A stretch of DNA of 64,000 bases from contig CACBMD010000004.1 in the NCBI GenBank assembly GCA_902539895.1, forward strand, positions 1 through 64,000, in the 5' to 3' direction. Made by a program: the position numbers and the translations under genes. This stretch comes from an uncultured SAR116 cluster alpha proteobacterium (GTDB lineage: Bacteria > Pseudomonadota > Alphaproteobacteria > Puniceispirillales > Marisalimonadaceae). Below, in pieces: positions 9,267 to 34,420 of this stretch (positions within the stretch are counted from its first letter, which is position 1; every line of letters starts with the position of its first letter). A model generated the notes under the pieces. It saw nothing but the letters and a program-made list of their open reading frames with translations, was not told where the DNA came from and did no database searches.

Positions 9267-12200
9267 ATGTTAAGAATTTTATTTTTAATAATTTTTATAT
9301 TTTTTAGTTTTATAAAAACTATTTTTGCAATGGATGAAAAAGATATTCATTTACTTATCAGCAAAAAATACAACATTGAGATTAATTTAAATGATCATAA
9401 GTTTCAGTATTTTCTCGGAAATAGTTATATTCAAGGATCAGAGATTCCTAAAGATATACTAAAAGGCATGAAACTACTTAAGTTATCATCTGATCAAGGT
9501 AATGATTACGCTCAAAATGCTCTTGGTTTAATTTATGAACTTGGAAATGAAAAAGTAAAAATAAACAAGAGTAAAGCTTTCAGTTTTTTCAAATTAGCAT
9601 CTGAACAAGGAAATAAATTTTCACTATATAATTTAGGTCTTTATTACTTAAAAGGGATTGTTGTTGAAAAAGATGCTAATCAAGCAGCTAAATTATTTAA
9701 ATTATCAGCAATGCAAGGTTATGGTTATGCCCAAAATGATTTAGGACTTCTTTATGAAAAGGGACTGGGAGTTGAGCGGGATTTAAAAAAAGCTACTAAT
9801 TATTTTAAATTATCAGCTGATCAAAATAATCCTCAAGGTTTATATAATCTTGCTTTTTTTTATAGTAATGGTCTATCAGTAAATAAGAATTTAAAAAAAG
9901 CGATTGAATTGTATCAAAGATCCTCAGATTTAGGAAATATTGAGGCTACTTTCAATTTATCTCTTATTTATCAAAACGATTTAGGGACTTTAGAAGATCT
10001 TAAAAAAGCAACGGAACTTCTAAAATTGGGAGTTCAAAGAGGACATTTACCATCTATAAATAATTTAGGATTTAACTATCAAAATGGTATTTTTGTTGAA
10101 AAAAATATCATTGAAGCGATTAGACTTTATAAAATCGCAGCTCAATTAGGATATAAAGTTTCACAAAATAATCTCGCAGAATTTTATGTGTTAGGAAAAT
10201 TTGAAAAAAAGGATATAAAAAAAGCTATTGAATTATATACAAAGTCTGCAAATCAAAATTATGCAATGGCTCAATATAATCTTTCTGTTTTATACCTCGA
10301 TGGTATTCATGTTCCAAAGAATAAAAAAAAAGGTTTAGAATATCTTAAACTTGCTGTTGCTCAAAATTTAGGCGAAGCCCAATATAATATGGCTACTTTA
10401 TACGAACAAGGAATAGAAATACCTAAGAATGTTCCAAAGGCAATTTATTATTATAAACTAGCTGCAAACAATAATATTGCTCAAGCTCAATATAGTCTCG
10501 GATGGAAGTATTATAATGGAAGATTTGTTAAAAAAGACATAGATAAAGCAACCTATTTTTACAAATTAGCTGTACAAAACGGTCATATTCAAGCACATAC
10601 TAATCTAGGGTTGATCTATGATCGATCTGATGATCCCAAAAAGCATAAAGAGGCAATAAAATTGTATGAGTTTGCTTCTAACTATGATTCTGAATCAGCA
10701 ATATATAACCTAGCTTTAAAGTATGAAAAAGGTAAGGGAGTTGAGAAAAATCTCTCAAAATCAATAGAATTGTTATCAAAAGCCTCTAAGTTAGGTCATG
10801 CTCCTTCCCAATATAATTTGGGTTGGATGTATAAAAATGGATATGGAATAAAACAAAATTATCAAGAGGCTGTAAGATTATATTCATTAGCAGCTGATCA
10901 AGGAGATGAATTTGCAGAATATAATCTTGCGTTGTTATATGAAAAAGGTGAGGGTGTAAAAAAAGATTTAAAAAAAGCTATAGACCTTTATACTTCATCA
11001 TCAGAAAAAGACTTTGCAAAAGCCCAATACAATCTGGGGTTAATATACAAAAACAAGAATGGTACAGAAGTAGACCTAGAAAATGCTTTTAAGTTTTTTT
11101 CTCTGTCATCTGCCAATGGATTTACTAAGGCTCACTTTCAATTGGGTTTGCTATATAAAGACGGCATTGGTATTGAAAAAAACAAGGAAGAAGCAATTAA
11201 GCTCTTTAAATTAGCTGCATCACAAGGAGACGATCTCAGTCTCAAAGAACTTGCAAGTGAAGGTGTGATTTTTGATCAACAAATTTTAGTTGAAAACCAA
11301 TCTAAAAAAAAATCGTTTGAAAATGAAAAAAATTTAGACATAGAACCTACGCAAGAAAAAATAAGAACGACAGAATTATCTAAAGCAATTGAAAAAATAA
11401 AATCCTTGGAAACAAAAATTTATAATATGGAAAAACAATTAAATTCCAAAAAGGATAAAAAACTGATTGAAAATCAAAATGAGGGTAACTTTTATGCAAT
11501 TCTCATAGCGAATTACAAATATGAGTTCATGAATAATCTTAAAACTCCTGAAAAAGACGTTGATGAACTTAATAGGATTTTGAAATCAAAGTATGGTTTT
11601 GAAACATACGTATTTAAAAACGCAAATAGAAAAAAATTAGTTGCTGAAATTACAAAATTGAATTCTCAAATTTCTTCCAATGATCATCTTTTAATTTATT
11701 ATGCTGGTCACGGTCATCTAGATATGAATGAAGGTTTTTGGTTGCCGGTAGACGCAAAATTAGATGATGAAAGCAACTGGTTAAGTAATAATTTCATCAT
11801 AAGACAGATGAAAAAGAATAAAGCTAAAAATATTCTTTTAATGGCAGACTCGTGTTTTTCAGGAGCCCTAACTAGAGGAATTTCCACAGACAAAAATAAT
11901 GATAATAATAAAAACGCCATAGATTTATATCTTAAGACAAAATCAAGAATTGCAATTTCATCTGGAGGTTTGAAACCAGTCCTTGATGGAGGAGGAGGTG
12001 ATTATTCTATTTTTGCCAGAATGTTTTTGAATACTCTTAAAACAAATCTAAAGCCAATGACTGCCTTTGATCTTTTTAATAAAATTAATAGAAAAATAAC
12101 AGAGCAGGCTCTTGCATATAATGTAGAACAAACTCCAGAGATTGGGACTATTGAAAGAGCCGGTCATGTTGGAAGAGACTTTGTTTTTATTCCTAACTAA
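9267..12200 (+). CDS. exported Sel1-repeat protein with C-terminal caspase (peptidase C14) domain
   Basis: 977 residues in three parts. Residues 1-22 form a signal peptide (LRILFLIIFIFFSFIKTIFA). About residues 45-640 are some 16 Sel1-like repeats of about 36 residues (for example AQYNLGLIYKNK, EAIKLFKLAASQGDD), a protein-binding solenoid. After a charged coiled linker (640-740) comes a caspase-like domain: FYAILIANYKYEF, the catalytic histidine His815 in YYAGHGH, and the nucleophile Cys863 in LMADSCFSG. It would be a periplasmic cysteine protease, probably cutting after a basic residue as metacaspase-like bacterial enzymes do (inference). It ends 4 bp into the convergent trypsin-like protease gene. 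Confidence 0.88.
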   Translation: MLRILFLIIFIFFSFIKTIFAMDEKDIHLLISKKYNIEINLNDHKFQYFLGNSYIQGSEIPKDILKGMKLLKLSSDQGNDYAQNALGLIYELGNEKVKINKSKAFSFFKLASEQGNKFSLYNLGLYYLKGIVVEKDANQAAKLFKLSAMQGYGYAQNDLGLLYEKGLGVERDLKKATNYFKLSADQNNPQGLYNLAFFYSNGLSVNKNLKKAIELYQRSSDLGNIEATFNLSLIYQNDLGTLEDLKKATELLKLGVQRGHLPSINNLGFNYQNGIFVEKNIIEAIRLYKIAAQLGYKVSQNNLAEFYVLGKFEKKDIKKAIELYTKSANQNYAMAQYNLSVLYLDGIHVPKNKKKGLEYLKLAVAQNLGEAQYNMATLYEQGIEIPKNVPKAIYYYKLAANNNIAQAQYSLGWKYYNGRFVKKDIDKATYFYKLAVQNGHIQAHTNLGLIYDRSDDPKKHKEAIKLYEFASNYDSESAIYNLALKYEKGKGVEKNLSKSIELLSKASKLGHAPSQYNLGWMYKNGYGIKQNYQEAVRLYSLAADQGDEFAEYNLALLYEKGEGVKKDLKKAIDLYTSSSEKDFAKAQYNLGLIYKNKNGTEVDLENAFKFFSLSSANGFTKAHFQLGLLYKDGIGIEKNKEEAIKLFKLAASQGDDLSLKELASEGVIFDQQILVENQSKKKSFENEKNLDIEPTQEKIRTTELSKAIEKIKSLETKIYNMEKQLNSKKDKKLIENQNEGNFYAILIANYKYEFMNNLKTPEKDVDELNRILKSKYGFETYVFKNANRKKLVAEITKLNSQISSNDHLLIYYAGHGHLDMNEGFWLPVDAKLDDESNWLSNNFIIRQMKKNKAKNILLMADSCFSGALTRGISTDKNNDNNKNAIDLYLKTKSRIAISSGGLKPVLDGGGGDYSIFARMFLNTLKTNLKPMTAFDLFNKINRKITEQALAYNVEQTPEIGTIERAGHVGRDFVFIPN

Positions 12201-13504
12201 TTTTTATGTTGAGCAAGAATTATGTCATTTAATTCTGGTAATATAAAATTTGTAGATTTTAGATAAATTTTTTCTTTATTGATTCTAATTTTTGTATGGT
12301 AGTTTTGTGTTAATATGTGATCCTTGTTTGACCAACAAGCATATATAATATTAGAAACATTTTTTGCTCTCAGAATAATATATAATTTTACCAAATTTTC
12401 AGGTTTGACTCTGTTTACAAATCTTATCCAGCATCCAGGCCCTAAATCTTTTTGATCTGCACCTGATCCTTTTAAAACCGAATGAATATAGAATTTTCTG
12501 TTGAGAAAATTTTTATCAACCTGAATTTGTTCTGAGACTATTGCTCCATCAAGAAATAAAAACTCACGGTCTAAGATTTTTTTTTGTTTCTGGAAGTGAA
12601 TAGTGTAAGATTTTATTCTATTTTCATTTTGAATTTTCAAAACTGTTGGGCTTTTAGATCCTCTCAAAATAAAATTTAGATCACTTGAATCATCAATCTT
12701 ATATCCATTGGCTTCTATTAATCGCGAACCCATTTCAATATATTTATTATTATGTTTAAGAAAAGCTATTATATTGCTCTCTACCTCATCTATGTCTTTA
12801 GCAAATCTAATGTTCATAATAGGTGGAGAGGGATCTTTCTTTTCTTTTAGTAATGTTAAGATTTTACAGGCAATATATATTGGCACTGCAAATCCAAGCC
12901 CTTCAGAATTTCTTTTGTATTTAGATTTATTTATTCCAACAACACGCCCATTTTTAAGATTAATTAAAGGGCCTCCGGAATTACCAGGATTAATAGCAGC
13001 GTCAGTTTGAATAACTTTTCTTTCATTTAAAACTAATTCTTGGGAAATTATTCCACGAGATGCAGAAAAAGAGAGACCATTTGGATGACCAAAGGCAGCT
13101 ACTTCTGTACCTGGTTTTGCAAGAAAGTAACAATCAAGATCAGCTTCAAGTGCATAATTTGGAATATCATCTTGATTTATCTTAAGAATAGCAAGATCAT
13201 ATTCAGGATCAATATAAACTGGTTTTACACTTTTATATGAACCATTTTTAAATTTTAACTTGAGTTTTGTGTCTCCTCTTCCTGAAACATGAGCATTTGT
13301 TAAAAAATATCCCTTTTCTTTATCAATCAGGAATCCTGCACCCATCCAACTACCAGCACCTTTAGTCTCAGCAAAAGGATATTGTGATTTTGCTTTTATT
13401 TTTACAGTATAATTTGATGCATTAAGTAAAAAATTCTCACTATAGGCAAGAGATTTAAAAATGATTAGGGTCAATATATTAAAAATTATTATTTTTATTT
13501 TCAT
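12197..13504 (-). CDS. exported trypsin-like serine protease (DegP-type S1C fold)
   Basis: 435 residues. A signal peptide (IKIIIFNILTLIIFKSLAYS) precedes a chymotrypsin-fold domain with a complete triad: His72 in FLTNAHVSG, Asp103 in YDLAILKI and Ser176 in NPGNSGGPLI. The C-terminal half (about 230-435) has weak PDZ-like features (MGSRLIEANGYKIDDSSDLNFIL) and a second similar segment (SVLKGSGADQKDLGPGCWIRFVNRVKPENL), as in DegP/HtrA proteins. It would act in the periplasm. It is convergent with the Sel1-caspase gene (4-bp overlap), suggesting a long-standing pairing rather than a transcript shared with it. Confidence 0.88.
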   Translation of the reverse strand: MKIKIIIFNILTLIIFKSLAYSENFLLNASNYTVKIKAKSQYPFAETKGAGSWMGAGFLIDKEKGYFLTNAHVSGRGDTKLKLKFKNGSYKSVKPVYIDPEYDLAILKINQDDIPNYALEADLDCYFLAKPGTEVAAFGHPNGLSFSASRGIISQELVLNERKVIQTDAAINPGNSGGPLINLKNGRVVGINKSKYKRNSEGLGFAVPIYIACKILTLLKEKKDPSPPIMNIRFAKDIDEVESNIIAFLKHNNKYIEMGSRLIEANGYKIDDSSDLNFILRGSKSPTVLKIQNENRIKSYTIHFQKQKKILDREFLFLDGAIVSEQIQVDKNFLNRKFYIHSVLKGSGADQKDLGPGCWIRFVNRVKPENLVKLYIILRAKNVSNIIYACWSNKDHILTQNYHTKIRINKEKIYLKSTNFILPELNDIILAQHKN

Positions 13505-13573: not shown

Positions 13574-15250
13574 TTATTTTGAACATGGATTTGACTGAGA
13601 GGTCATCTTGGCAAGTCTTGCAAAACTTTCTTTGGGTAACTTGTTTAATAACTTAATAAGAACATCATCACCTGAAGAAAGTATGTCATTTATAAGAGAA
13701 TCTCCCATAGCTTCACCAAATTTGACCTCCTCTTCCTTGAGATCCATTCCACGAATTATAGCTCCGTCTCTGAGTGCATTTTTTAACTCAACAATGAATT
13801 CCTGTTTTAATTTTGAACCACATTCATCACATTCATAATTGTTAAGATCATTTAAATGGCCACAATGATGGCATGATTTTAATTGATTTGATATTTCAAA
13901 GAATTCATGCCCGCACTCGTCACATTTTTGAGCTCCAAGAGAACATTCAGTTTCACAAGTTGGACATACCTTATGTGTAGGTCTTTTTACAGAACTCCTG
14001 AATTTAGCTGGCATTTCACTCTCAACTCTAAGTGCATATTTCTCGAACTGAGGAAGTGATGGCATAACAACATAAGCACTTGTCATATCGTTTTCACCAA
14101 TGGTTCTTACTACACGACCAATTGCCTGCCTGAAAAAAAGCTCAGTCTGTGCAGATGGTAGATAAATCAGAACTCTAAGTCTTTTTATATCCACACCTTC
14201 AGACACCATTGCAACTGATACCATCCATCGCTTGTTAGATCTTCTGAAGGAGGCAATTCTTTGTTCTGCATTAGCAATATTACTGTGAACCATGGCAGGT
14301 TTTTCTCCTTCCAGTAATTCTATGATATTGCTCATGTGCTCTGCTGTTGCAATGTTTGGAGCTATTATAAGACCTCCTGCGTCAGGCATTTGAAGTCTTG
14401 TCTCATTTAGTTTATTTATGCCCCATTTAATCATAGTTCCCTGATATGAATCTACATCAGGTGTTATCTGATCACTTTTGAACTGTCTTGTACAAGCAAG
14501 TTTATAAAAATCAAGAGCCTGTTGAAGGCCAGTTATTTTAAGCTTGTCCTTAGTTAAATCATTTTTGGATTGACTGTTTACATTTGCAAGAGTTTCTCCA
14601 GCAAGCGAAACTGAAAAGTTTCCCTCATGTCTGTGAAATGTAACTGGCCTGCAATATCCTAAATCTACAGCTTTACCATAACTTAGGGTATATGTACCTT
14701 CTACAGGCTGATTTATTCTACCATTACTGTCATAGGCCATCCACACAGTTTCTTGACCATCTGATCTAATCGGTGTTCCAGTCAGTATTAATACATATTT
14801 AGCATTTGAAAATGAACTGTTTGCACCGTCACCCCATGCAGCTTTGACCGCTGCATGATGATGTTCATCACAAATTACTAGTGTCCGTGATGATGAACAT
14901 ACAGAATGAAAAGCTTCTTGCAGATTCTGTATAGCTGCCCAGGTTGCACACAAATCCTCTCCGTAGCCATCTATATCATCTGATGAGGTCACTTTCATCA
15001 TATGTCTTCCAGTAACAAACTCAAAATCATTACCCCATTGCCTAACAATTTCTGAACGTGGAGCTATTACAATAACGCGATCAATCATATTATTTTTGAT
15101 TAATTCTCTTGCTATTACAGAAGCACATATGGTTTTCCCTGAACCAGGGGCTGCATTTATAACAAAGTGTTTATTATTTTCATTGTTATACCAATCAATA
15201 GCTTGCCTTTGAGCATCTGCCTGCCAAGGTCTTAATTTAATTTCTTTCAT
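13574..15250 (-). CDS. RadD-like superfamily 2 helicase with zinc ribbons
   Basis: 558 residues. Motif I is APGSGKT (34-40), motif II is DEHH (128-131), motif III is LTGTP, and motif VI is RQAIGRVVRT, so the ATPase core is complete. The C-terminal part has two zinc-ribbon clusters (CPTCETEC with CDECGHEF; CHHCGHLN with CDECGSK), as in RadD (YejH) and phage SSL2-like helicases. It would unwind or remodel DNA, perhaps in repair or element replication. Its start codon overlaps the stop of the HNH gene (TAATG), so translation is coupled. It is the last gene of a four-gene operon driven by promoter P6 through the structured leader. Confidence 0.85.
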   Translation of the reverse strand: MKEIKLRPWQADAQRQAIDWYNNENNKHFVINAAPGSGKTICASVIARELIKNNMIDRVIVIAPRSEIVRQWGNDFEFVTGRHMMKVTSSDDIDGYGEDLCATWAAIQNLQEAFHSVCSSSRTLVICDEHHHAAVKAAWGDGANSSFSNAKYVLILTGTPIRSDGQETVWMAYDSNGRINQPVEGTYTLSYGKAVDLGYCRPVTFHRHEGNFSVSLAGETLANVNSQSKNDLTKDKLKITGLQQALDFYKLACTRQFKSDQITPDVDSYQGTMIKWGINKLNETRLQMPDAGGLIIAPNIATAEHMSNIIELLEGEKPAMVHSNIANAEQRIASFRRSNKRWMVSVAMVSEGVDIKRLRVLIYLPSAQTELFFRQAIGRVVRTIGENDMTSAYVVMPSLPQFEKYALRVESEMPAKFRSSVKRPTHKVCPTCETECSLGAQKCDECGHEFFEISNQLKSCHHCGHLNDLNNYECDECGSKLKQEFIVELKNALRDGAIIRGMDLKEEEVKFGEAMGDSLINDILSSGDDVLIKLLNKLPKESFARLAKMTSQSNPCSK

Positions 15251-15447
15251 TAATTTGCGCCTTTCTTAAGGTTGCATGTAGGGCATAAAGCCATTCCATT
15301 TTTAAGAATTGTTTTTCCGGATTTGGAAAATGGAATTTTGTGATCAGCATGGAAGTTTTTTTTCAGAACATTTCCACAAATGCCACAAAGGTTTCCAGAT
15401 AAAAGTCTGAGAGTTATTCTTTGTTTTCTATTGAACAAGCGCCTCAT
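15250..15447 (-). CDS. small HNH endonuclease-like protein
   Basis: A 65-residue HNH domain: CGICGN and CPTCNLKKG are the two zinc-binding CxxC pairs, and FHADHKIPFSKSGKT supplies the catalytic AxHKxP core. It overlaps both neighbours by a few bases. Such stand-alone HNH proteins nick or cut DNA, often with a helicase partner; here the partner is the RadD-like helicase directly downstream. The small size is normal for phage-type HNH proteins. Confidence 0.85.
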   Translation of the reverse strand: MRRLFNRKQRITLRLLSGNLCGICGNVLKKNFHADHKIPFSKSGKTILKNGMALCPTCNLKKGAN

Positions 15448-15728
15448 TTACTTATCCAATATTCACTCACAAGAATATCTCTAACAGGAAGTTCTTTTGG
15501 TGGAATGACAGTACAATGTTCATTCATCCTTTTTAAAATGCGTGCCATTGGAACTTTTGTTGATTTAATCATATAGCCATCGCGTTTCATTTGACTTATG
15601 TCAGCGGTAAGGTTTTGAACACCGAAGAGTATCTGAGATTCCAGACGTGAAATTCTACGCCCATTTTCCATTTCAATTAGTAAGGCCATATGGCCATTAA
15701 ATTTTTCTGTTTTATGCATTAATTCCAT
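15444..15728 (-). CDS. small uncharacterised protein, possible helix-turn-helix
   Basis: A 94-residue basic protein. The middle (RISRLESQILFGVQNLTADISQMKRDGYMIKSTKV) looks like a winged-helix segment of the kind used by phage DNA-binding proteins. It overlaps the HNH gene by 4 bp (ATGA) and the upstream gene by 10 bp, so it belongs to the same tightly packed operon. Two ATG codons (15728 and 15719) are possible starts. Family not identified. Confidence 0.6.
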   Translation of the reverse strand: MELMHKTEKFNGHMALLIEMENGRRISRLESQILFGVQNLTADISQMKRDGYMIKSTKVPMARILKRMNEHCTVIPPKELPVRDILVSEYWISK

Positions 15729-16060
15729 CCCATATTAATTTGGTTGAATTTATTAAACCCCTCATTCCAGTCTAAACAACAAGGATCATGGAGTTGGTTT
15801 GAGCTATAATATTCATAGTATGTTTTCCATGGCTTTTTAGTCATGACAGTGTAGGTGTCCTGAGCATAATATGAAGGATAGCCTTGTCTTTCATTGATCT
15901 TTTCTTTACTGATTTTTCCTCGTGCAATTTCTAAAAAATTGTTTGCAGCAAGAAATAATTCCTTTGATGAAAACTCACCATCATCAAGGTCTGAAAATTC
16001 TGTAAAAACTTCGATTACTTCGTCAAGTTTACTTGGTTTTAAATCATAATTATCTAGCAT
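15719..16060 (-). CDS. uncharacterised first gene of the helicase operon
   Basis: A 113-residue acidic protein with a strong ribosome site (AAGGAGAAAG before ATG). It has predicted helices (KLDEVIEVFTEFSDLDDGEFSSKELFLAANNFLEIARGKI) and an aromatic-rich C-terminus (YYEYYSSNQLHDPCCLDWNEGFNKF). No family recognised. It follows the structured leader and promoter P6 and is therefore the first cistron of the operon with the HNH and helicase genes. Confidence 0.6.
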   Translation of the reverse strand: MLDNYDLKPSKLDEVIEVFTEFSDLDDGEFSSKELFLAANNFLEIARGKISKEKINERQGYPSYYAQDTYTVMTKKPWKTYYEYYSSNQLHDPCCLDWNEGFNKFNQINMGWN

Positions 16061-16106
16061 TATCTTTCTCCTTAATTTTTGAAAAAGATGATAAATTTAT
16101 CTTTTT

Positions 16107-16283
16107 AATTGACCTGCTCGCTTTCAGGCATTGTGTTGCCACCATCAGCTTTTGATTTTAGTCTGGTCGAACATTTTACCCTGTTCGATAGTCATCTTTG
16201 TCCCGTCCGCTAGGTTCAATTGAACCATCAAAGCGCAGTCCGTTAGGTCTGGGTAAGATGCGGGCCTTAAACTCATCATCTTG
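16107..16283 (-). ncRNA. candidate structured leader RNA, copy A
   Basis: A 177-nt sequence with near 50% GC in a 30% GC background, repeated without gaps and with 7 mismatches at 29848-30024 in opposite orientation. It is read from promoter P6 towards the helicase operon and ends 46 bp before its first gene. Possible stems include a UCGAACA/UGUUCGA hairpin, the palindrome GGUUCAAUUGAACC, CAUCUU with AAGAUG enclosing it, and CCUG/CAGG near the 3' end. Between copies, the change in the first hairpin is in the loop and that in the last stem keeps a U-G pair. An alternative reading as a short peptide is weakened by a stop in the other copy. Flanking sequence 16284-16369 holds only the promoter. 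Confidence 0.5.
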
Positions 16284-16290
16284 ACTTGTT

Positions 16291-16327
16291 ATAAGTAATA
16301 AGATTGGCCGGCCATTTTTCTTGGAAG
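16291..16327 (-). promoter_or_regulatory. promoter-like motif P6 (helicase operon)
   Basis: On the minus strand TTCCAAGAA is followed by CTTATTAC, which starts exactly 22 nt after the first C of CCAAG, as in the five other copies. The spacer uniquely contains the perfect palindrome TGGCCGGCCA. The expected start of transcription, about 16285, leads directly into the structured leader. Confidence 0.7.
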
Positions 16328-16369: not shown

Positions 16370-19300
16370 TTAATTAATAGTGGATTCAATATTCACATAA
16401 GGCGCCCAGTAAAATGGATGGAGCCATTGTAAATTTTTGCTTTTTCTTAATTCATGTTGAGCTTTTTGAAGACTTTGTGATCGTGAAAAACCATCATTTT
16501 TAAATTTTTTCACAGCTGAAATCGAAAAATTTTTAGCAGAATTAGTTTCTATAGGCCATAAAGTAGACATTACACCATCAGATCCAGCCGAAAGAAATGA
16601 ACTTGCAAGACCTGCAAAAGGATTTTGATCTGAATCTTTTGTGTTAAATGTATTGCAAGCTGTTAATAAAACCCAATCTGCTTCAAGGTTAAGAGAGATA
16701 ATCTCACTAGATGATAGATAACCATCTTCAGTGTTTTGACTTCCAAAATTTGAGAGAGCAAGTCCTGGTTCGGATACTGGAGATAATTCAGAGGTCATAA
16801 ATCCATGAGTTGCAAAAACAATGATATTAAATTTATCTAATAATTGCTTTTTAAAAATCTCCTCACTAGCATTTTCTCCAATTAGAATTTTTCTGTCATT
16901 TTTTTTAAAAAGATCAGATATCATTTTTATCTCTTCTCTGGTTGAGGGAAGAGGTACAAGTTTTTCAAGATTAATATTTTTACCTTCATATGTAAGTTTT
17001 GATGACTTGAATTTCGGATCTCCTATACCCAAGAATTTGAATTTTTTTGTTAATCTGTTTTTCTTATTTTTAAACTTTATAATAGAAGGTACATAAGTAA
17101 CGTTATATACGTGATTCAACCACAGTATACTATCAAGTCCTGATGATTTTTCTGTTTGACTATTTTGCTTTGATATACCTCTTGAGGCCATATAAATAGG
17201 TGGATTTAATACGGCATTAGTTTCTTTTAATATAAGAGCTCCAAAGGGCAACTTATAAAAAATTCCATCTGCTGATATTCTTATTTCATCAATATTATTT
17301 TTAAAAATCGATAAAGGAAGTATTTTTTGTTGCAGTTTAAAAACTCTGTTCAAACTATAATTTGTTAACTGACCATTTATAGCCTTGTTATAATCGATAA
17401 TTTCATTATTGATTGATTTTAAATCATCAATGAGTTTGATTTTTACATCGTTTTTTGAAATTCCGTAAATTAATAATTTGTTAATGTCTTTTATTTCAAA
17501 AAAGTTTAAGTAAACCTGATTAGACGATAGGTTATTTTGAATTTCTTCTACTAAAGGTTTATTAAAATCAAAAATTTTATCTAAATATTCTTGGTTTGAT
17601 ATTTCATAATATTTTTCACTTAATATTGACTCATCTATAAATTTCACAATGTCTTTACTTATGTCTTTATTATCATTTAAATTATTGGATGATAGGAGTA
17701 ATAATCTTTTTCTTCTTTCAAAATACTCTCTATATTTGTGTTTATTCTCTTTTTTAATTATTGCTTGATAATTAATATAAGACTCTGAATTAGAAAATTT
17801 GCTTAAAATCAACAATCTTAATAAATTTGAATTTTTAATTTTGGTTTTATCTTTTTCAAATAAATATTCGTATATAATAAGTTGTGTTAATAAAGATATA
17901 TTTTTGTTTTTCTTGTTGCCTTTAAAAAATGATATTAGGTTTTTCATTATCTTATTTTGATCGTCTAATCCTCTATAAGATCGATAGCTGTCAGAAAATG
18001 AGTTTGTTTTGGCATCAGTCAAAAGTTGAATTGTTAACAATTTAATAAGATTATTTTTCAGATCAAAAAAAGATTGATAATCAATACCTGATGCATCATC
18101 ACTTAAATTCATTAATAAGTTTTCACTTAATTTAAGTATAAATTTTCTATTTGCTATGTCCTGAATTAATTCATCGTCATTTGCAATTTTGGATACTTCT
18201 TCAACATATATCTTGTTGAATTCAGAGAATTTAATTTTTTCTGATAGCGTCAATATAATTAGCATTTTCATTCGAGAGCTAAAAATAATGGATTCATCGT
18301 ACGCAAGTTTATTGATTAACTTAAAATCAATAAAATTATTTTTGTTTTTAACTAAATTTTCAACCACTGACATGAAGTATTGCTGAAAAATATATGGTAT
18401 CGCCATCTGTTTGGAATAGTTAATTAATTCTGGTAAAAATGGAGAACAATGATCTAACATTATTTGTTTCGCAAGATCTCCATTACCTTGCTGAACATAG
18501 TGTTGACTTAGTGATAGGGTGGTTTGGCAGACACCGACAATAGATGATATTTTAAAATAATTTGAAATTTCAGGTCTGTTTTTTAAATTAATTTTTTCTA
18601 GATTATTTTTTTTAATTTTTAGTTTATTTTTGTAGAATAAAATTAGATCATCGAAATTATTATTTTTTTTAAGATAATTTTCATAAATATTATCAAGAGT
18701 TTTTAAATTCACACTGTCATTCTTTTCTTTTTTATATATTTCAAGTGCGTATTTAACATATCCATCTTTTAATTGCGTGTCGGTTTCTGAAGCAATGTTA
18801 ATTAATTTATCAAGAAATTTTAAGTGCAATTCAGAGCCTTCACCTTGAGTTGAATATGCCTTTCTTTCCAATATCTTTATAATTTCGTACCAACTTTTAG
18901 GATTAAATAATCTCTGTGGATCAAGTTGATAAATCTCATTAAGATATTCTAATATATAAATCTGATTGAATTCAGAGACATTATTTTTCAGAAAATTATT
19001 AATCTTGTTATCATAAAAAATGTAACTTTCATTGAAGTTAGTAGTTTTTAATAATTTTTCATTATCTCTTAAAATACTCTCAAGTGCTAAATCCTTATAT
19101 TGATTAAAAATATTTTTATTTTGTAATAATATTTTTATCTCTTCATCAGTAAGATAATTTGAAAGTGCCATGAATTCTTGGGAAGTGAAACCTCTAAAAA
19201 TAGAGTTTAAACGTGTATTAAAATGAGCAAATATTTTTATTTTATCATCGATCAATATATGTTTGCTTTTAATAATATTTTTAAAAACTCGTCCCCAAAT

Positions 19301-19885
19301 CAACTTTGCTTTTGTCTTATCAAAAACATGCAAACTTAAAATGGAATTTGAAAATAGAAACTCGTCTTTAAAAAGTTTTAGCAGATTTTTATTCTGGCAA
19401 TCATCTTCTTTGACCAAACATAAAAAAATCTTACCATTTTCTGTATTTGAAAATGTGGTAACTATTTTGGTTTCGATGTTAAAAAATTTTGTTTCATTTA
19501 AAATTAGAAATCTAAGAATGTCCTGTTCACTAAAGTTTTGACTTTTGATTTTTTTGCTTAAGAATTGCATAAATTTATTGATGTCAACCTTCTGATTTCT
19601 CCATACCAAAAATTCAGAAGCAAGAATGTTTAAAGTTGAGGCATCTTGATGAAATTTTTTTGGAACTTTAGAAAAATCATATTTTCTTAAGAAATTTTGA
19701 AAATCTTTAATACTACTTGCTTTTTCAAGGTCTGAATTAGATTTATCTATGAATTCATTTAGCGTGTAATTTTTGAAATTATAATCTTCGGCTTTTAAAG
19801 AAATATTTAAAAATGAAACAATTATTATAAAAAATATAATATATTTTTTCAAAACTACATATCCTTGGTTTTTTCTGTTTTCCAA
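16370..19885 (-). CDS. exported CHAT-domain caspase-like protein (CHAT-1)
   Basis: 1171 residues. An N-terminal membrane/signal segment (YIIFFIIIVSFLNISLKAE) sends the rest to the periplasm. Residues 40-850 are helical and low in clear motifs, likely degenerate TPR-like helices. The C-terminal CHAT domain (about 870-1171) has His1027 in VFATHGF, Cys1077 in LLTACNTF, the GLASSFLSAGSDGVMSTLW core and the closing HPFYWAPY, so the caspase dyad is intact. The gene overlaps the membrane-protein gene by 31 bp, and a TTG at 19852 would give a more typical signal peptide start (KKYIIFF). It is the third gene of the sigma operon. A protease role is inferred from the dyad; the substrate is unknown, the neighbouring membrane protein being the obvious candidate. 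Confidence 0.85.
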   Translation of the reverse strand: MENRKNQGYVVLKKYIIFFIIIVSFLNISLKAEDYNFKNYTLNEFIDKSNSDLEKASSIKDFQNFLRKYDFSKVPKKFHQDASTLNILASEFLVWRNQKVDINKFMQFLSKKIKSQNFSEQDILRFLILNETKFFNIETKIVTTFSNTENGKIFLCLVKEDDCQNKNLLKLFKDEFLFSNSILSLHVFDKTKAKLIWGRVFKNIIKSKHILIDDKIKIFAHFNTRLNSIFRGFTSQEFMALSNYLTDEEIKILLQNKNIFNQYKDLALESILRDNEKLLKTTNFNESYIFYDNKINNFLKNNVSEFNQIYILEYLNEIYQLDPQRLFNPKSWYEIIKILERKAYSTQGEGSELHLKFLDKLINIASETDTQLKDGYVKYALEIYKKEKNDSVNLKTLDNIYENYLKKNNNFDDLILFYKNKLKIKKNNLEKINLKNRPEISNYFKISSIVGVCQTTLSLSQHYVQQGNGDLAKQIMLDHCSPFLPELINYSKQMAIPYIFQQYFMSVVENLVKNKNNFIDFKLINKLAYDESIIFSSRMKMLIILTLSEKIKFSEFNKIYVEEVSKIANDDELIQDIANRKFILKLSENLLMNLSDDASGIDYQSFFDLKNNLIKLLTIQLLTDAKTNSFSDSYRSYRGLDDQNKIMKNLISFFKGNKKNKNISLLTQLIIYEYLFEKDKTKIKNSNLLRLLILSKFSNSESYINYQAIIKKENKHKYREYFERRKRLLLLSSNNLNDNKDISKDIVKFIDESILSEKYYEISNQEYLDKIFDFNKPLVEEIQNNLSSNQVYLNFFEIKDINKLLIYGISKNDVKIKLIDDLKSINNEIIDYNKAINGQLTNYSLNRVFKLQQKILPLSIFKNNIDEIRISADGIFYKLPFGALILKETNAVLNPPIYMASRGISKQNSQTEKSSGLDSILWLNHVYNVTYVPSIIKFKNKKNRLTKKFKFLGIGDPKFKSSKLTYEGKNINLEKLVPLPSTREEIKMISDLFKKNDRKILIGENASEEIFKKQLLDKFNIIVFATHGFMTSELSPVSEPGLALSNFGSQNTEDGYLSSSEIISLNLEADWVLLTACNTFNTKDSDQNPFAGLASSFLSAGSDGVMSTLWPIETNSAKNFSISAVKKFKNDGFSRSQSLQKAQHELRKSKNLQWLHPFYWAPYVNIESTIN

Positions 19886-21795
19886 TCACCATCTTCATCA
19901 TATCCCATTTGGTCAATGAAGCCATCGTAGTTTGTATCAATCAACCATTCGTAACTTATAAAATTTTCTTCAATTTTTGGATAAACAAGAATATCACCTA
20001 TAGAGTCTTCATTAGTATCAAATACGTAATACTCAACATTTTTTTCATCATTAATGATTGCTATTATTTCAGCCTTATTGTCTCCGTCAAAATCTATAAA
20101 AATATTATTAATATCATTTTTATCTTCATCTATGTTTTTCCATGATTTTATATTTGGTGCATATAGTGTTTTTTTAAAAACATTAGAATAAAGTTTATAA
20201 AGCCCGTTACGTTCTAATTCTTGAACATTTTTTTTCTTTTCCCACTCCATATTCATAAATTTTTTATCAAAAATTTCTAGGGTTGTAGGCTGATAATTCA
20301 AAAGACCAATTGGGTATTTTTCTTCACTTTTTTCATCTTTGAAGAAGATAATTATTCTCTCTTTTCTCCAAGGTGGGTTTATTGAATATGTTTCTCCAAT
20401 TTTTGATCTAGTGTTAGCTTTATAATCCGCTATTAAAAAATTTTCTGTTTCGCATGGAGTGTCTTCTTCGATTTTCTCTAGTATTCTTAAACCTTCATTA
20501 GATTTAAGTACATTATCTATATAAATTGATCCATTATTATTATAGTCAAAATAAAACTCAATTTCATTACCTGAAAGTAATTTGTCGTTATCTGAAAATT
20601 TAAAAGTTTTTTTGGTTTTAGGATTTGTAACCATAATGTGAAATTGTTTATTAAATGCTTTTGGGTCTGACTTTAATTTTGGAAGAGTACAGTCTTTAAA
20701 ATTTAAAACTTTTCTTTGACTAGCAACTAAATTATTTTCTCCTCTCGATATCATAGCATTAGATCCCGGAAAAGTATTCTCAACACTTTCTAAATAAATT
20801 TCAGAGTCTGAAGATAAACTGGATAATTGAATTATTGCAGGATTTGATGCAACAATCGTACTGTTTGTTCCATATAATAATCCAGCCCCAATAAACAGGG
20901 GGGTGATTGCTGCAAAACTTAAATCCAAAGGTCTGAAAGTTATAAAGTCTTTTATTTTAGAAAAAAGACTTCTGTCTTTTGAAATAAATTCGGCCAGAAT
21001 TTCTTCATTTTTTTTTGAATTTTCTTCAATTTTAAGCCAATTTTCAAGAATTGAAGCGTCAGGTCCTTCATAATGATTTTTTAGACTTAATGAATATGAA
21101 TTAAATTTTTTCTGTATTTCAATTTTTTCTCTGAGCTCGCCATCATATTCAAGTATTAAATTAAATTTTTCTGCTTCTTTCATATCCAAATAACCATCTG
21201 TGAAAGCAAGTATTTTTTCACTATCAATAGACTTGGCAAAGGATACTAAACTAGTAAGCTTTTCAATTTCACTTTGATTTTTTCTAATTTTAGATCTTAC
21301 AAAAGCTAATTCACCATTTAACTGATTTTCATTTCTGATGTCTGGTTTGATCAGAAAATTCTGATTGGTGTTATTTGAGGTTTGTTTTTTAATAAAATCT
21401 TCAAGACCTTCATCAAGTCTCTTATTTAATTCAAAACCTTTATCAATGGACTCCTCAAGAAGATTAATAAAACTAATTGCTGTAGAACCATATATGCTTT
21501 CACCATTATCTTTTGATTTAATCAAACTTTCTATAAAATAATTATTTTTAAAATTGTCACCGTTAGTTTCATGCCATGATAGAAATTTTTCAAGATCCCC
21601 AATCGTAACATTATCAATTTTAAAAATAGCTTTCTCTTCTTCAATTTTTTCTTGCTGTTCTCTAATTAAAAATCTTTCTTGTTCATAGAAACTTAAATCT
21701 TCTAAAAGTTGATCTTTTTTTAAACTTAATTCGTCTAACTCTAATTGATGGCTATCTATTAAATCCCTAATTATTTTAAAATGTTGTTCAGCCAT
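19855..21795 (-). CDS. single-pass membrane protein with cytoplasmic coiled coil, possible anti-sigma/sensor
   Basis: 646 residues. The first 285 are charged and rich in coiled coil (LDELSLKKDQLLEDLSFYEQ and following). One membrane segment lies at about 291-309 (LSFAAITPLFIGAGLLYG), with basic residues before it, so the N-terminal half should be cytoplasmic and the rest periplasmic. The C-terminus carries Ca-binding-like loops: FDGDNKAE, DTNEDSIGD, DTNYDGFID and DEDGDWK. Its start overlaps the stop of the sigma gene by one base, and its end overlaps the CHAT-1 gene. This order (sigma, membrane protein, protease) is what one expects of a sigma factor held by a membrane anti-sigma factor, but no known anti-sigma motif is visible, so the role is inferred. 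Confidence 0.75.
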   Translation of the reverse strand: MAEQHFKIIRDLIDSHQLELDELSLKKDQLLEDLSFYEQERFLIREQQEKIEEEKAIFKIDNVTIGDLEKFLSWHETNGDNFKNNYFIESLIKSKDNGESIYGSTAISFINLLEESIDKGFELNKRLDEGLEDFIKKQTSNNTNQNFLIKPDIRNENQLNGELAFVRSKIRKNQSEIEKLTSLVSFAKSIDSEKILAFTDGYLDMKEAEKFNLILEYDGELREKIEIQKKFNSYSLSLKNHYEGPDASILENWLKIEENSKKNEEILAEFISKDRSLFSKIKDFITFRPLDLSFAAITPLFIGAGLLYGTNSTIVASNPAIIQLSSLSSDSEIYLESVENTFPGSNAMISRGENNLVASQRKVLNFKDCTLPKLKSDPKAFNKQFHIMVTNPKTKKTFKFSDNDKLLSGNEIEFYFDYNNNGSIYIDNVLKSNEGLRILEKIEEDTPCETENFLIADYKANTRSKIGETYSINPPWRKERIIIFFKDEKSEEKYPIGLLNYQPTTLEIFDKKFMNMEWEKKKNVQELERNGLYKLYSNVFKKTLYAPNIKSWKNIDEDKNDINNIFIDFDGDNKAEIIAIINDEKNVEYYVFDTNEDSIGDILVYPKIEENFISYEWLIDTNYDGFIDQMGYDEDGDWKTEKTKDM

Positions 21796-22733
21796 CAGAC
21801 ATTCACCCTAGTTTTTCCTTCGATGCAATTCATAAACGCTTCTCTAATTTGAATAGCAAGGTCGCCTACAGTTCCGGCTGCCATACCGAGTATTTCTGCA
21901 ATTTTTTCAGTTGTAGGTCTTTGTTGGTTAGTTATATCTTGATCAGGATGCAGGCTAAGATCCAAAATTGCTTTTTCTCTTTCAGTAAATTGCTTCTTGC
22001 AATCATCAATTCTCATCTTAAGTATTGTTATATCTTCTTCAGTATTTTCTGAAAGAACTTTTGATAAATTTTCATTTTTTAAAACCGAGGGTTTTGATTT
22101 TATTCCTACTCTTACATTTTTTCCACCTATGCCAATTTCACTAATTTCATGATCAAACCAAACTCTTATTGAAAATGTATGTTCATCAATTATTTCGTCG
22201 ATTACAATTTCATTGCCCCATTTATTTCTTAATCTATCTTTGGTTCTTTCACTGAGCTCGTTATCATTAAATCCTGTCAAAATTACAGCAGAACCCAAAT
22301 TTGCTTTATGAGGATTTTTTGTAGATATGAAAATTTTATTTTTGTCATTATTTTCTGTTCTGATTGAATTTTCTTTCAAGTGTAAAGGTTTCTTAATCTC
22401 AAATGGTTTGAAATCAAAAAATTGCTCATCTTTATCACTTAAGTTATAGACAGAGCGTTCTAGAGCAGCTTCATCACGTTCTTTTTTTTCAATATCATCG
22501 TGAAATATCCAATTTATTCTTTTTTTCACATAATTAGTTAAATTCTTACTTCGATCAATTTTTTCTGGGTTCTCCACAATTTTAAAACCAGCTCTTACAA
22601 ATAAATCTTCGGCATCATCGCGTGTTATATTAAATCTTGCTTGAGCATAATATATATAACTCTTGCGATCTCGCCAAATTTCTCTAGCGAGACTATTTTG
22701 GTTATGCTTCTGGGATTTGTTTGCTTCTGCCAT
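21795..22733 (-). CDS. sigma-70-family-like factor with inserted middle domain
   Basis: About 312 residues from the ATG at 22733 (a TTG at 22742 is less likely). Residues 28-95 resemble region 2 of extracytoplasmic-type sigma factors: YYAQARFNITRDDAEDLFV, NLTNYVKKRINWIFHDDI. Residues 240-308 resemble region 4: FTEREKAILDLSL, then a helix-turn-helix TEKIAEILGM..GTVGDLAIQIREAF. Between them sits an insert of about 100 residues with strands (KIFISTKNPH, AVILTGFND, IDEHTFSIRVWFD), longer than the linker of normal ECF factors. Promoter P5 of the six-copy family lies 25 bp upstream, pointing to autoregulation. It could also be a transcription factor without core-polymerase binding. Confidence 0.7.
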   Translation of the reverse strand: MAEANKSQKHNQNSLAREIWRDRKSYIYYAQARFNITRDDAEDLFVRAGFKIVENPEKIDRSKNLTNYVKKRINWIFHDDIEKKERDEAALERSVYNLSDKDEQFFDFKPFEIKKPLHLKENSIRTENNDKNKIFISTKNPHKANLGSAVILTGFNDNELSERTKDRLRNKWGNEIVIDEIIDEHTFSIRVWFDHEISEIGIGGKNVRVGIKSKPSVLKNENLSKVLSENTEEDITILKMRIDDCKKQFTEREKAILDLSLHPDQDITNQQRPTTEKIAEILGMAAGTVGDLAIQIREAFMNCIEGKTRVNV

Positions 22734-22756
22734 ATTATTCAATTAGTTTTTGTACG

Positions 22757-22792
22757 AATATTATAAGAACAATAAAACAAAATTCTTGGAAA
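22757..22792 (-). promoter_or_regulatory. promoter-like motif P5 (sigma operon)
   Basis: On the minus strand TTTTCCAAGAA and CTTATAAT, again with 22 nt between the first C of CCAAG and the first C of the second box. It is back to back with P1: the two CCAAGAA boxes form an inverted repeat (TTCTTGGAAAA, then TTTTCCAAGAA) around 22783-22818. It sits 25 bp before the sigma gene. Confidence 0.6.
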
Positions 22793-22808: not shown

Positions 22809-22846
22809 TTTCCAAGAAAAATCTCCTTCCATTCTTATTACATATG
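22809..22846 (+). promoter_or_regulatory. promoter-like motif P1
   Basis: TTCCAAGAA (22810-) and CTTATTAC (22834-22841), 22 nt apart by the same measure, followed by the DUF4258-like gene at 22869. Divergent from P5. Confidence 0.7.
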
Positions 22847-22868
22847 AATGAAAAAAAAGGAGAGAAAA

Positions 22869-23150
22869 ATGCAGACATTAAATTTGACAAATCACGCAAA
22901 ACACAGAATCCAACAAAGAGGTATTACTGGTGATGTTGTCCAATTCATCATGGATCAGGCTGATAAGGTTGAATATTCCCGAGATGGAGCAAATGCAATA
23001 TTTGTATCAAGGAAGAGAATTAAAAAGCTAATTCAAAAGAAAGTTGTAAAACCGGCTCTTGCAGAAAAGGCAAATGGTGTAGTGCTTATTGAAAATAGTG
23101 GAGACGTGCTTACTGTTTTCCATCAAACAAGATCTCGGTTAAAGCACTAA
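22869..23150 (+). CDS. DUF4258-like small protein
   Basis: A 93-residue protein from the ATG at 22869, which has AAAAGGAGAG just upstream; an ATG at 22848 lies at the expected transcription start and is unlikely. The pattern LTNHAKHRIQQRGITGDVVQFIMDQADKVEYSR followed by a basic middle and a GDVLTVFHQTR ending is that of DUF4258, a small basic RNase-like (RelE/BECR-type) family sometimes acting as toxins. No antitoxin gene is next to it. It lies alone between P1 and P2 and is the first plus-strand member of the inferred regulon. Confidence 0.7.
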   Translation: MQTLNLTNHAKHRIQQRGITGDVVQFIMDQADKVEYSRDGANAIFVSRKRIKKLIQKKVVKPALAEKANGVVLIENSGDVLTVFHQTRSRLKH

Positions 23151-23176: not shown

Positions 23177-23214
23177 TTTCCAAGAAAAATATTCTCCCAA
23201 TCTTATTACATAAT
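23177..23214 (+). promoter_or_regulatory. promoter-like motif P2
   Basis: TTTTTCCAAGAA with the C at 23180, and CTTATTAC at 23202-23209: the same 22-nt step. It precedes the DUF2130-like and cyclotransferase genes by about 50 bp. Confidence 0.7.
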
Positions 23215-25411: not shown

Positions 25412-25449
25412 ATTCCAAGAAAAGTAAACTCTCAATCTTATTACTTGTG
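25412..25449 (+). promoter_or_regulatory. promoter-like motif P3
   Basis: ATTCCAAGAA (C at 25415) and CTTATTAC at 25437-25444, with the constant 22-nt step. It begins 9 bp after the stop codon of the preceding gene and leads to the gene at 25472. Confidence 0.7.
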
Positions 25450-29694: not shown

Positions 29695-29732
29695 TTTCCA
29701 AGAAAATATTCTTCCCAATCTTATTACTTATG
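29695..29732 (+). promoter_or_regulatory. promoter-like motif P4
   Basis: TTTTTCCAAGAA (C at 29698) and CTTATTAC at 29720-29727, with the constant 22-nt step. It leads through a short broken reading frame and leader copy B into the genes from 30071 on. Confidence 0.7.
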
Positions 29733-29746
29733 AGAAGGAGAAAATA

Positions 29747-29847
29747 ATGAAATTTTTAATCAGAGTAAATTAACAAGAATTAAAAAAGATTGAGAAGCAG
29801 GTTTCTAAACAGTTGGGTTGTCTGATTGTTGAACAGAGATCTGTAAC
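29747..29847 (+). pseudogene. short or broken reading frame between P4 and leader copy B
   Basis: AGAAGGAG is followed by an ATG at 29747 that opens only 8 codons before TAA at 29771-29773. The same frame then continues QELKKIEKQVSKQLGCLIVE, which looks protein-like. It may be a gene broken by one stop codon, or an intentional leader peptide. Copy A of the leader has no counterpart of this 100-bp segment. The region 29604-30070 otherwise contains P4, leader copy B and no full gene. Confidence 0.35.
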
Positions 29848-30024
29848 CAAGGTGATGAGTTTAAGGCCCGCATCTTACCCAGACCTAACGGACTGCGCTT
29901 TGATGGTTCAATTGAACCTAGCGGACGGGACCAAGATGACTATCGAACAGGGTTAAATGTTCGACCAGACCAAAATCAAAAGCTGACGGTGGCAACACAA
30001 TGCCTGAAGGCGAGCGGGTCAATT
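29848..30024 (+). ncRNA. candidate structured leader RNA, copy B
   Basis: Gap-free inverted counterpart of 16107-16283 (170 of 177 bases equal by eye). Here it reads rightwards and ends 46 bp before the ATG of the gene at 30071, the same distance as in copy A, and the AT-rich stretch up to the ribosome site is also similar. The frame that is open in copy A is stopped here by TAA (29953-29955), favouring an RNA function over a peptide. Confidence 0.5.
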
Positions 30025-30070
30025 TAAAACATAAATTCATCATCTCTTTTTTAATATATGGAGTAATTAA

Positions 30071-30313
30071 ATGAATAAAAATTCAAATGTAATTTATATT
30101 TCTGAAACTATTTCTCAAATGGAAAAAATTCAGAAAAAATATTTAGGTAAAAAATATCACGTTCGCAATAAGCCTTTTAAAAAGAAGAAGAGAAATAAAA
30201 CAAAAACTGTGAAAGTGTTGTCTACATTAGCTCGGCTTGAAAAAAAATATCCTGAAAAGTGGGGATATGGTTTTAGAACAGTGCAGGGAGGTAGCGTTGG
30301 TAGCAGACGATAA
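30071..30313 (+). CDS. small basic uncharacterised protein
   Basis: An 80-residue very basic protein (KKKKRNKTKTVKV in the middle), preceded by ATGGAGTAA as ribosome site. No family recognised; the charge suggests nucleic-acid binding. First intact cistron after P4 and leader copy B, and overlaps the next gene. Confidence 0.55.
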   Translation: MNKNSNVIYISETISQMEKIQKKYLGKKYHVRNKPFKKKKRNKTKTVKVLSTLARLEKKYPEKWGYGFRTVQGGSVGSRR

Positions 30314-30635
30314 AAAAACCAACCAATTATGTGTTGAAAACAAAGTGGATTATTTTATTGAAACTCATATTAGACAGAATAAAGCTAAATGTTTTTTTTG
30401 TAATAATACTATCAAATTCAATCCAGACTTTGAAAAAAGATCAAAACTGATTTGTAAAATAGGAGATAAAATGAATCTCAATCAAAAATCAGGTTTTGTA
30501 AACGATCATATCTTGGATGGTGATAAACCATTTGCTTACTATTACTATGAATCTGAATGGATACACAAAAAGCAAAGCTTTAAAATTTATGTAGACTTTA
30601 TTTTCTCAGATCAAAAATCTGACCTCATAAAATAA
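30297..30635 (+). CDS. uncharacterised protein with CxxC motif
   Basis: From the TTG at 30297, which has GGGAGG five bases upstream, the protein has 112 residues; an in-frame ATG at 30267 is an alternative. It contains KAKCFFCNNTIKF, a half zinc ribbon, and an aromatic segment FAYYYYESEWIHKKQSFKIYVDF. It overlaps the gene before it by 17 bp and is followed by a clear terminator hairpin. Function unknown. Confidence 0.5.
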   Translation: MVADDKKTNQLCVENKVDYFIETHIRQNKAKCFFCNNTIKFNPDFEKRSKLICKIGDKMNLNQKSGFVNDHILDGDKPFAYYYYESEWIHKKQSFKIYVDFIFSDQKSDLIK

Positions 30636-30660
30636 ATCAAAGAAAATTTAAGTTAGATTT

Positions 30661-30680
30661 AAAGGAGCTAAGGCTCCTTT
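30661..30680 (+). terminator. terminator hairpin
   Basis: AAAGGAGC and GCTCCTTT form a perfect 8-bp stem with loop TAAG, followed by AAATTTTAAT, 25 bp after the preceding stop codon. Confidence 0.65.
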
Positions 30681-30703
30681 AAATTTTAATATGGGAGTAA
30701 TAA

Positions 30704-30877
30704 ATGAAAAAAGAAATCATAAAAAAATATATTAAATACTTTGGAATGTCAGCACCAGTTCCTCGATTTAAAATAATGAAATCATTAGTTGAAATGAAAG
30801 AGAATGGTACTTACGAGAAAAGTCGAAATTACTATCTCAGGTCTATGGTGGGCTTAGTCTGGGAAGGAAAATCATGA
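30704..30877 (+). CDS. small uncharacterised protein coupled to the GGCT gene
   Basis: 57 residues, basic and helical (KKEIIKKYIKYFGM, then PRFKIMKSLVEMKENGTYEKS). GGGAG lies 6 bases before the ATG. Its stop overlaps the next start as ATGA, so translation of the cyclotransferase-like gene is probably coupled to it. No family recognised. Confidence 0.55.
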   Translation: MKKEIIKKYIKYFGMSAPVPRFKIMKSLVEMKENGTYEKSRNYYLRSMVGLVWEGKS

Positions 30878-31263
30878 TTTACATTGCATATGGTGCCAAC
30901 CTTAACAAATCAGCTATGAGACATAGATGCCCCGATGCAACGCCTATTGGGTCTTCAAAAGTTAAGGATTACAAACTCATATTTAATAATGTTGCAAGCA
31001 TAGTGAAATCTCCCGGATCACACGTTGAAGTTGGTTTGTGGAGAATTACCAAAAATTGTGAGAAATCACTTGATCGTTTTGAGGGATTTCCAAGTTTGTA
31101 CCGAAAGAAATATTTTTATCAGGGTATGGTTTACATTATGAACCATGATGGCAAAGCTGTTCCAAATAAAAATTATTTTGAAACAATCGCACAGGGTTAT
31201 AGAGATTTTAACCTGGATCGTTCCTATCTCGATAAGGCCCTTGAAGAAGCCTATGATCACTAA
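30874..31263 (+). CDS. gamma-glutamylcyclotransferase-like protein (AIG2 fold)
   Basis: A 129-residue single GGCT domain: IYIAYGANLN is the YGxN loop, and Glu in LDRFEGFPSLY is the catalytic acid position. It shares the RCP(D/G)A(T/D)P(I/V)G segment with the C-terminal domain of the protein at 24440, so the two are island paralogues. It would act on gamma-glutamylamine or similar compounds in the cytoplasm; substrate unknown. Confidence 0.8.
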   Translation: MIYIAYGANLNKSAMRHRCPDATPIGSSKVKDYKLIFNNVASIVKSPGSHVEVGLWRITKNCEKSLDRFEGFPSLYRKKYFYQGMVYIMNHDGKAVPNKNYFETIAQGYRDFNLDRSYLDKALEEAYDH

Positions 31264-33424: not shown

Positions 33425-34420
33425 ATGACTAACTTACAAAATCATGTAGCCCTTTTTGCTGGACTAGGAGGTTTTATACTAGCTACAGAAAAACTAGGAA
33501 TTAAAACTGTTTTAGCCAATGAAATTGATGAAAATTGCAATAAAACATTAAAAACAAACTTTCCTGATTTATATATTGAAAAGAAAGATATAAGAGAACT
33601 TTCGTTTGTTGATAATGTAAGAAATAAAGATATAGATCTGGTTACAGCAGGTTTCCCCTGTCAATCATTTTCAGTAGCAGGAGAAAATAAAGGTTTTGAG
33701 GATCCAAGGGGAAAGCTTTTTTTTGAAATTCCAAGATTATTAAAGGAACTAAAAGATTATCCAAAAGTAATAATTCTAGAAAATGTTCCTAATTTAAAGA
33801 ATTTTAATTCTGGTGAGAGATTGTCGGTAATTATTAAGGAATTAAGATCCATGGGGTATTGGGTTAACCAAAATAATTCTATGATTTTAAATACTAATAA
33901 ATACACTAAGTCGCCACAAAGTAGAAATAGATTATACGTAGTAGCGCTTCATTCTAAGTTTTTTAGGTCAAATAAAATAAGTAAAGAAATTTTAGTCGAA
34001 ACAAAACCACATTCATTATGGAAAATTATTAATAAATCAAAAAAGGTGGATAAATCATATTATTTATCCAATGAAAATAAGCATTTCCATATGTTGCAAA
34101 ATTTAGTCAACAAACATGGAAAAGAATTTGTATATCAAGTTCGTAGATCGGACGTTAGAGTTGCAACTCAAAAGGGTGTTTGTCCTACTCTTACTGCAAA
34201 TATGGGATTGGGAGGTCATAATATACCATTCATATCTGATGATTTTGGAATAAGGACACTTACAATTGAAGAATTATTAACTCTTCAAGGTTTAAACATT
34301 AAAAATTTTAATTTTCCAGACATTTCACGAGCCTCAAAGCTCGAAATGTTAGGTAATGCTGTGCATCCAGAAGTAATTTTAGAAATTTTGAATAAAATTT
34401 TAACATTAAAGTCAAGTTAA
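33425..34420 (+). CDS. C5 cytosine DNA methyltransferase
   Basis: 331 residues, within the usual range. All main motifs are visible: FAGLGGF (motif I, SAM binding), GFPCQSFSVAG with nucleophile Cys79 (motif IV), ENVPNL (motif VI), SPQSRNRLYVV (motif VIII, QxRxR), RTLTIEELLTLQGL and GNAVHPEV (motifs IX-X). It would methylate cytosine C5 in a short DNA site; the target-recognition segment (about 185-260) does not reveal which. It leads a four-gene cluster of the type seen with GHKL/MORC ATPases. No ordinary restriction endonuclease is recognised beside it. Confidence 0.92.
   Translation: MTNLQNHVALFAGLGGFILATEKLGIKTVLANEIDENCNKTLKTNFPDLYIEKKDIRELSFVDNVRNKDIDLVTAGFPCQSFSVAGENKGFEDPRGKLFFEIPRLLKELKDYPKVIILENVPNLKNFNSGERLSVIIKELRSMGYWVNQNNSMILNTNKYTKSPQSRNRLYVVALHSKFFRSNKISKEILVETKPHSLWKIINKSKKVDKSYYLSNENKHFHMLQNLVNKHGKEFVYQVRRSDVRVATQKGVCPTLTANMGLGGHNIPFISDDFGIRTLTIEELLTLQGLNIKNFNFPDISRASKLEMLGNAVHPEVILEILNKILTLKSS

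Follow-up and report, generated by a model that had tools for sequence, protein, structure and literature searches.

The window analysed here, a stretch of 64,000 nt from a marine alphaproteobacterium of SAR116 type, carries two copies of an element that is probably a structured RNA domain of ~205 nt at the start of two mRNAs, compact and closed by a long stem. We read the element as a lineage-restricted, cis-acting structured 5' leader RNA that two transcripts of a small regulon share, and give this reading a probability of about 0.5. On the basis of only three copies, it is probably an undescribed regulatory RNA. Computation supports its fold and its conservation; we infer that it is transcribed, folds in the cell and regulates.

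Two copies and their predicted promoters

A sequence-only reading of the window had described two ungapped 177-nt copies in inverted orientation with 7 differences, and alignment of the cores at 16107-16283 (-) and 29848-30024 (+) agrees with this description. The GC content was also as far above that of the surroundings as had been claimed, with 46% in one core and 50% in the other against 30% for the whole window, a level of 46% being reached by just 0.26% of 177-nt windows. The same holds for the claimed position behind a regulon promoter and 46 nt ahead of an operon's first ATG: this distance from the 3' end of the core is identical in copies A and B (ATG at 16060 and 30071, respectively), and each copy lies 3' of a perfect CCAATCTTATTACTTAT, for which 0.8 sites at ≤3 mismatches are expected in the window.

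The homology between A and B extends past the 177 nt into a further 26-28 nt of AT-rich flank. When whole leaders were folded, the first bases of the element paired with bases 8-22 nt inside this 3' flank, and the conserved unit is therefore 203 nt (A) or 205 nt (B) long. Its ends are defined by A/B similarity and not by the fold, and they were examined after the fold had been seen. The copies of the sequence-only reading are thus real, but their boundaries were drawn too short, as they leave out the 3' strand of the closing stem (P1). A third copy, C, is found in another SAR116 genome of the same genus (G036), where it precedes the same operon as copy B does. Leader B and its orthologue C differ at 2 of 177 positions, compared with 142 of 2920 positions downstream (Fisher p 0.009) and 3.8% in intergenic DNA. 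The copies, with their promoters and operons, are as follows.

16081..16283 (-): element copy A, 203 nt (177-nt core plus 3' arm), based on A/B homology, fold z and match to model R1
29848..30052 (+): element copy B, 205 nt, based on A/B homology, fold and match to model R1, with the orthologous copy C known
L006:3378-3582 in G036: element copy C, orthologous to copy B
16295..16324 (-): regulon promoter, leader A
29698..29727 (+): regulon promoter, leader B
13574..16060 (-): operon behind leader A, encoding a 113-aa protein, a 94-aa HTH_39-like protein and a DEAD/ResIII helicase with zinc ribbon
30071..31263 (+): operon behind leader B, encoding 80-aa, 132-aa and GGACT-domain proteins

The regulon promoter has the motif CCAAGAA-N14-TCTTATNAY with fixed spacing, and the window holds six perfect sites. 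None of 100 shuffles contained six such sites, even when 2 mismatches were allowed. A search of the genome, which is incomplete (69%, 71 contigs), with a nearly identical promoter pattern gave five sites, all inside the window, and one site was found in G036; a match in a further genome (G065) lies inside a hydrolase-like gene and was rejected. Besides the two sites before the element, the regulon includes the following promoters and genes.

22760..22789 (-): regulon promoter 5' of the sigma-factor operon, 0 mismatches; predicted autoregulation
22812..22841 (+): regulon promoter 5' of a 100-aa gene (22848-23150) with weak likeness to DUF4258; leader short and plain
23180..23209 (+): regulon promoter 5' of a DUF2130 gene; leader lacking the element
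25415..25444 (+): regulon promoter 5' of an ARPP-1 gene; leader lacking the element
21795..22742 (-): ECF-type sigma factor, 315 aa (TIGR02937 E 4.6e-10, 39.4 bits, just below the 42.9 cut-off)
19855..21795 (-): 646-aa protein with one hydrophobic segment, a possible anti-sigma factor; no family match
16370..19885 (-): 1171-aa protein with a CHAT domain (PF12770 E 1.6e-40), encoded at the end of the sigma operon

The presence of six perfect, equally spaced promoter sites, one of them before the ECF sigma operon, suggests an island-encoded regulon. The ECF-type sigma factor is the likely reader of the six predicted promoters. The operon of sigma factor, 646-aa protein and CHAT protein, with a regulon promoter of its own, could form a protease-triggered, autoregulated sigma circuit.

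The island that holds the element contains proteases and phage-defence-like genes. Further island proteases are a caspase C14 with Sel1 repeats at 9267-12200 (+) and a trypsin-like protease with a weak PDZ match at 12197-13504 (-), and a second CHAT protein is encoded at 26616-29603 (+). A pair of genes at 34434-36356 and 36340-37209 (+) matches the PADLOC candidate defence proteins PDC-M33A (4.3e-66) and PDC-M33B (2.7e-30), and is preceded by a C5 cytosine methylase gene at 33425-34420. A tyrosine integrase adjoins tRNA-Ser(GCT) at 38487-39950, which suggests an integrated island with its likely integration end at this site; a second end of the island was not found. In G036 (L006:1176-3220), the region that corresponds to window position 29660 and upstream holds, as judged from sequence, genes for a Vsr-like endonuclease and a cytosine methylase instead of the CHAT gene. 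The two loci part immediately ahead of the regulon promoter, which would fit movement of promoter, leader and operon as a single cassette. At four loci read in other SAR116 genomes, relatives of the 132-aa gene had no GC-rich leader at their 5' side.

A probable long closing stem and branched fold

The structural evidence centres on P1, a stem of 14-15 bp in which AAGAUGAUGAGUUUA pairs with UAAAUUUAUCAUCUU in copy A and AGGUGAUGAGUUUA with UAAAUUCAUCAUCU in copy B. Its 3' strand is contained in the extra 26-28 nt of 3' flank, which has otherwise diverged between A and B; the conserved bases there are mostly those on the P1 strand. The strands of P1 and an extension of leader B are located as follows.

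16268..16282 (-): P1 5' strand, copy A (AAGATGATGAGTTTA)
16085..16099 (-): P1 3' strand, copy A (TAAATTTATCATCTT)
29850..29863 (+): P1 5' strand, copy B
30032..30045 (+): P1 3' strand, copy B; next come a U tract and the ribosome-binding site
29732..29847 (+): 116 nt that extend leader B alone at its 5' side; they include a mini-ORF (MKFLIRVN, 29747-29773) and an interrupted hairpin of 19 bp (29797-29844)

By themselves, the 177-nt cores fold no better than shuffled sequences (z -0.18 and -0.76), whereas inclusion of the 3' flank with P1 gives z values of -2.76 (A), -2.6 (B) and -2.1 (C). A structured leader RNA is thus the best reading through the 3' flank, P1 and differences that keep pairs, and not through the evidence originally offered for it, on 177 nt. 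Among 126 random windows of equal length the mean z was -0.29 and 3 reached -2.6, which makes fold energy alone weak evidence; the reverse strand also folds about as well (z -1.59 vs -1.80). The strong part of the structural evidence is P1 as an end-to-end helix, which is far beyond chance: helices of at least 14 bp in this position occurred in 3 of 6254 control windows, and in 0 of 5000 and 2 of 5000 shuffles.

Inside P1, a second stem (GGCCCGC/GCGGGUC) is intact in B and C and has one mismatch (C-A) in A. An inner arm, CAUCUU/AAGAUG, contains internal hairpins, among them GGUUC-AAUU-GAACC, and a further hairpin of the domain is formed by UCGAACA-8-UGUUCGA. The 5' extension of leader B has a fold z of -2.64, and its pairs are kept by 2 of the 3 differences between B and C. 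From the 3' end of P1 it is 11-13 nt to the ribosome-binding site, and the sense strand yielded no intrinsic terminator. When P1 was blocked, the ribosome-binding site became hidden in A and not in B, which means that no switch common to both copies was found; a ribosome-site switch via P1 was therefore considered and then dropped.

Over the 205 columns of A, B and C, paired columns hold 4 substitutions that preserve pairing and 1 that disrupts it (the C-A in the second stem of A), and the rest are unpaired; the three columns of P1 that vary or wobble are all G-U or Watson-Crick when read on the sense strand. Variation that breaks all stems, which the sequence-only reading had named as speaking against an RNA, did not occur, most A/B differences keeping pairs. 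On the structure of B alone, the substitutions toward A did less damage than random changes (p 0.01 for energy, 0.07 for pairs kept), and the same test on the structure of A alone gave p 0.045 for energy and 0.13 for pairs. Limited to the 177 nt it was not significant, and on the consensus structure the p-values were smaller, this consensus being derived from the very same sequences. No pair showed a double compensatory change among the three near-identical sequences, and the structure is therefore likely rather than proven. Taken together, the fold is likely, with support from P1 and pair-keeping substitutions and no true covariation from three near-identical copies.

Function and alternative explanations

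Both copies lie on the sense strand between the predicted promoter and the ribosome-binding site. Since they hold this same place in two of the six regulon leaders, cis control of these mRNAs fits best. In the mechanism that we propose, the island-encoded ECF sigma factor would start both transcripts, probably a few bases 3' of CCAAGAAAA-N12-TCTTATTAC as judged from the motif. In the RNA of copy A, the 5' strand of P1 would then lie almost at the very start, and P1 would close a branched domain of the second stem, the CAUCUU/AAGAUG arm and the UCGAACA-8-UGUUCGA hairpin. The most likely role of the fold would be in cis, as control or 5' protection of the mRNA of the downstream operon, with translation, stability or termination as candidate outputs. 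For A, whose stem would start only a few bases from the inferred start site, a plausible output is 5' protection. A bolder proposal, which we consider quite improbable, is that a new class of structured leader RNA acts as a second, RNA-level checkpoint on a protease-triggered ECF sigma defence regulon, where selected operons would need both freed sigma and a further, RNA-sensed signal.

The RNA might instead act in trans or bind a protein: a 205-nt domain would leave the mRNA by release or processing, with P1 and the U tract as its 3' end, and would bind an island product in the manner of abiF-associated or type III antitoxin RNAs. This fits the compact form of both copies, closed by P1 and with a U tract behind it, and the use of one regulon to drive two copies; RNAs encoded next to defence genes are known, the abiF RNA being an example (PMC12373285). 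Yet the sense strand has no terminator-like site at the 3' end of the unit, the downstream genes include no toxin or Abi family, and the nearby genes searched include no reverse transcriptase or CRISPR-type gene, the sole RT-named match covering a protease domain. We hold this alternative to be unlikely. A reading as template/variable repeat (DGR) or retron was dropped, as no reverse transcriptase was matched among the genes searched. Another idea, that P1 is the terminal inverted repeat of a MITE-like mobile remnant and that the copies arose through transposition, is improbable in our judgement, even though inverted arms (identical as DNA at 13/15 and 12/14) mark the limits of the unit almost exactly and its two copies have opposite orientation. 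No target-site duplication is visible, and no more copies turned up in the incomplete genome or across 136 genomes of the order, whereas a MITE is expected as multiple dispersed copies with such duplications; moreover, both copies are placed sense-strand between a regulon promoter and the first gene, and every mismatch of the arms is a G-U on the sense strand.

A coding ancestry of the element is possible and less likely than an RNA. On this reading, which we find rather unlikely, each operon would once have had a short first gene, and the element would be what is left of it, broken by stops or still giving a peptide of 34-44 aa. The frame in question is the 44-aa ORF of copy A at 16145..16279 (-), which the sequence-only reading had noted as open in A and stopped in B; a TAA is indeed found, and the frame is stopped early in both B and C. 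In its favour, B and C have an ATG with a good ribosome-binding site where the first genes of the regulon start, from which the frame runs on into the 177 nt, the third-position GC of the element exceeds that of first and second positions, and 5 of 8 in-frame differences are at third positions. This bias reaches just p = 0.09, however, and the GC trend is opposite to that of the window's own genes. B and C share two in-frame TAA, A lacks the 5' half, and P1 is left unexplained. No homologue was found in Pfam, PHROGs, phages, plasmids, IMG/VR or about 500 genomes. The codon-type conservation of a peptide that had been named as evidence against an RNA was thus looked for and met shared stops and no homologues; an open frame, homologues and conservation of this type are not what characterizes the element. 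A second frame is open in B and has two TAA in A, and an AlphaFold2 model of the 44-aa peptide from its single sequence was uninformative (mean pLDDT 64).

Relation to known RNAs and defence systems

In Rfam 15 at the gathering cut-off, nothing but tRNA-Ser was matched in the window, and at permissive thresholds the best sub-threshold matches of both leaders were far under their cut-offs. This agrees with the earlier statement that the element resembles no nameable riboswitch. When phages, plasmids, IMG/VR, 136 genomes of the order and 385 genomes of the class were searched at the DNA and peptide levels and with covariance models, copy C was the sole relative returned. Weak model matches in two genomes (G104 and G101) and a 17-mer match in IMG/VR fall within ordinary ORFs and are regarded as chance matches.

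For metabolic genes, structured leaders are a familiar feature; to our knowledge, and within a narrow literature search, they have rarely been described before defence-like operons, and we know of no counterpart of this leader in CASP-sigma / Csx30 / TPR-CHAT systems. If real, the element would be an undescribed RNA motif of an abundant ocean lineage, in an island with an apparent sigma factor of its own, a possible anti-sigma protein and a CHAT protease, and would offer a case in which to test whether bacterial defence is controlled at the RNA level.

It is the regulon, and not the RNA, that can be likened to the CASP-sigma / Csx30 / TPR-CHAT system of type III-E CRISPR (PMC10028731), through its CHAT-family protein, ECF-type sigma factor and possible sigma inhibitor; unlike that system, it has no Cas7-11 or CRISPR among the genes searched. 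The abiF-associated RNA and the RNAs of type III toxin-antitoxin systems (PMC12373285) are similar in being structured RNAs just 5' of genes in a defence-like or mobile context, but here there is no Abi_2 or type III toxin gene, no Rfam match to the abiF RNA and no tandem antitoxin repeats. According to published work, high GC in the intergenic regions of an AT-rich genome is a hallmark of structured RNAs (PMC8632094, PMC8723152). Compared with the structured 5' leader RNAs known from such regions, among them riboswitches and protein- or signal-responsive leaders, the element differs in having no Rfam match, three copies only and no switch found in common between both copies. It is like them in its GC-richness and size of ~200 nt, in its closing stem with a branched interior, and in its place between promoter and ribosome-binding site.
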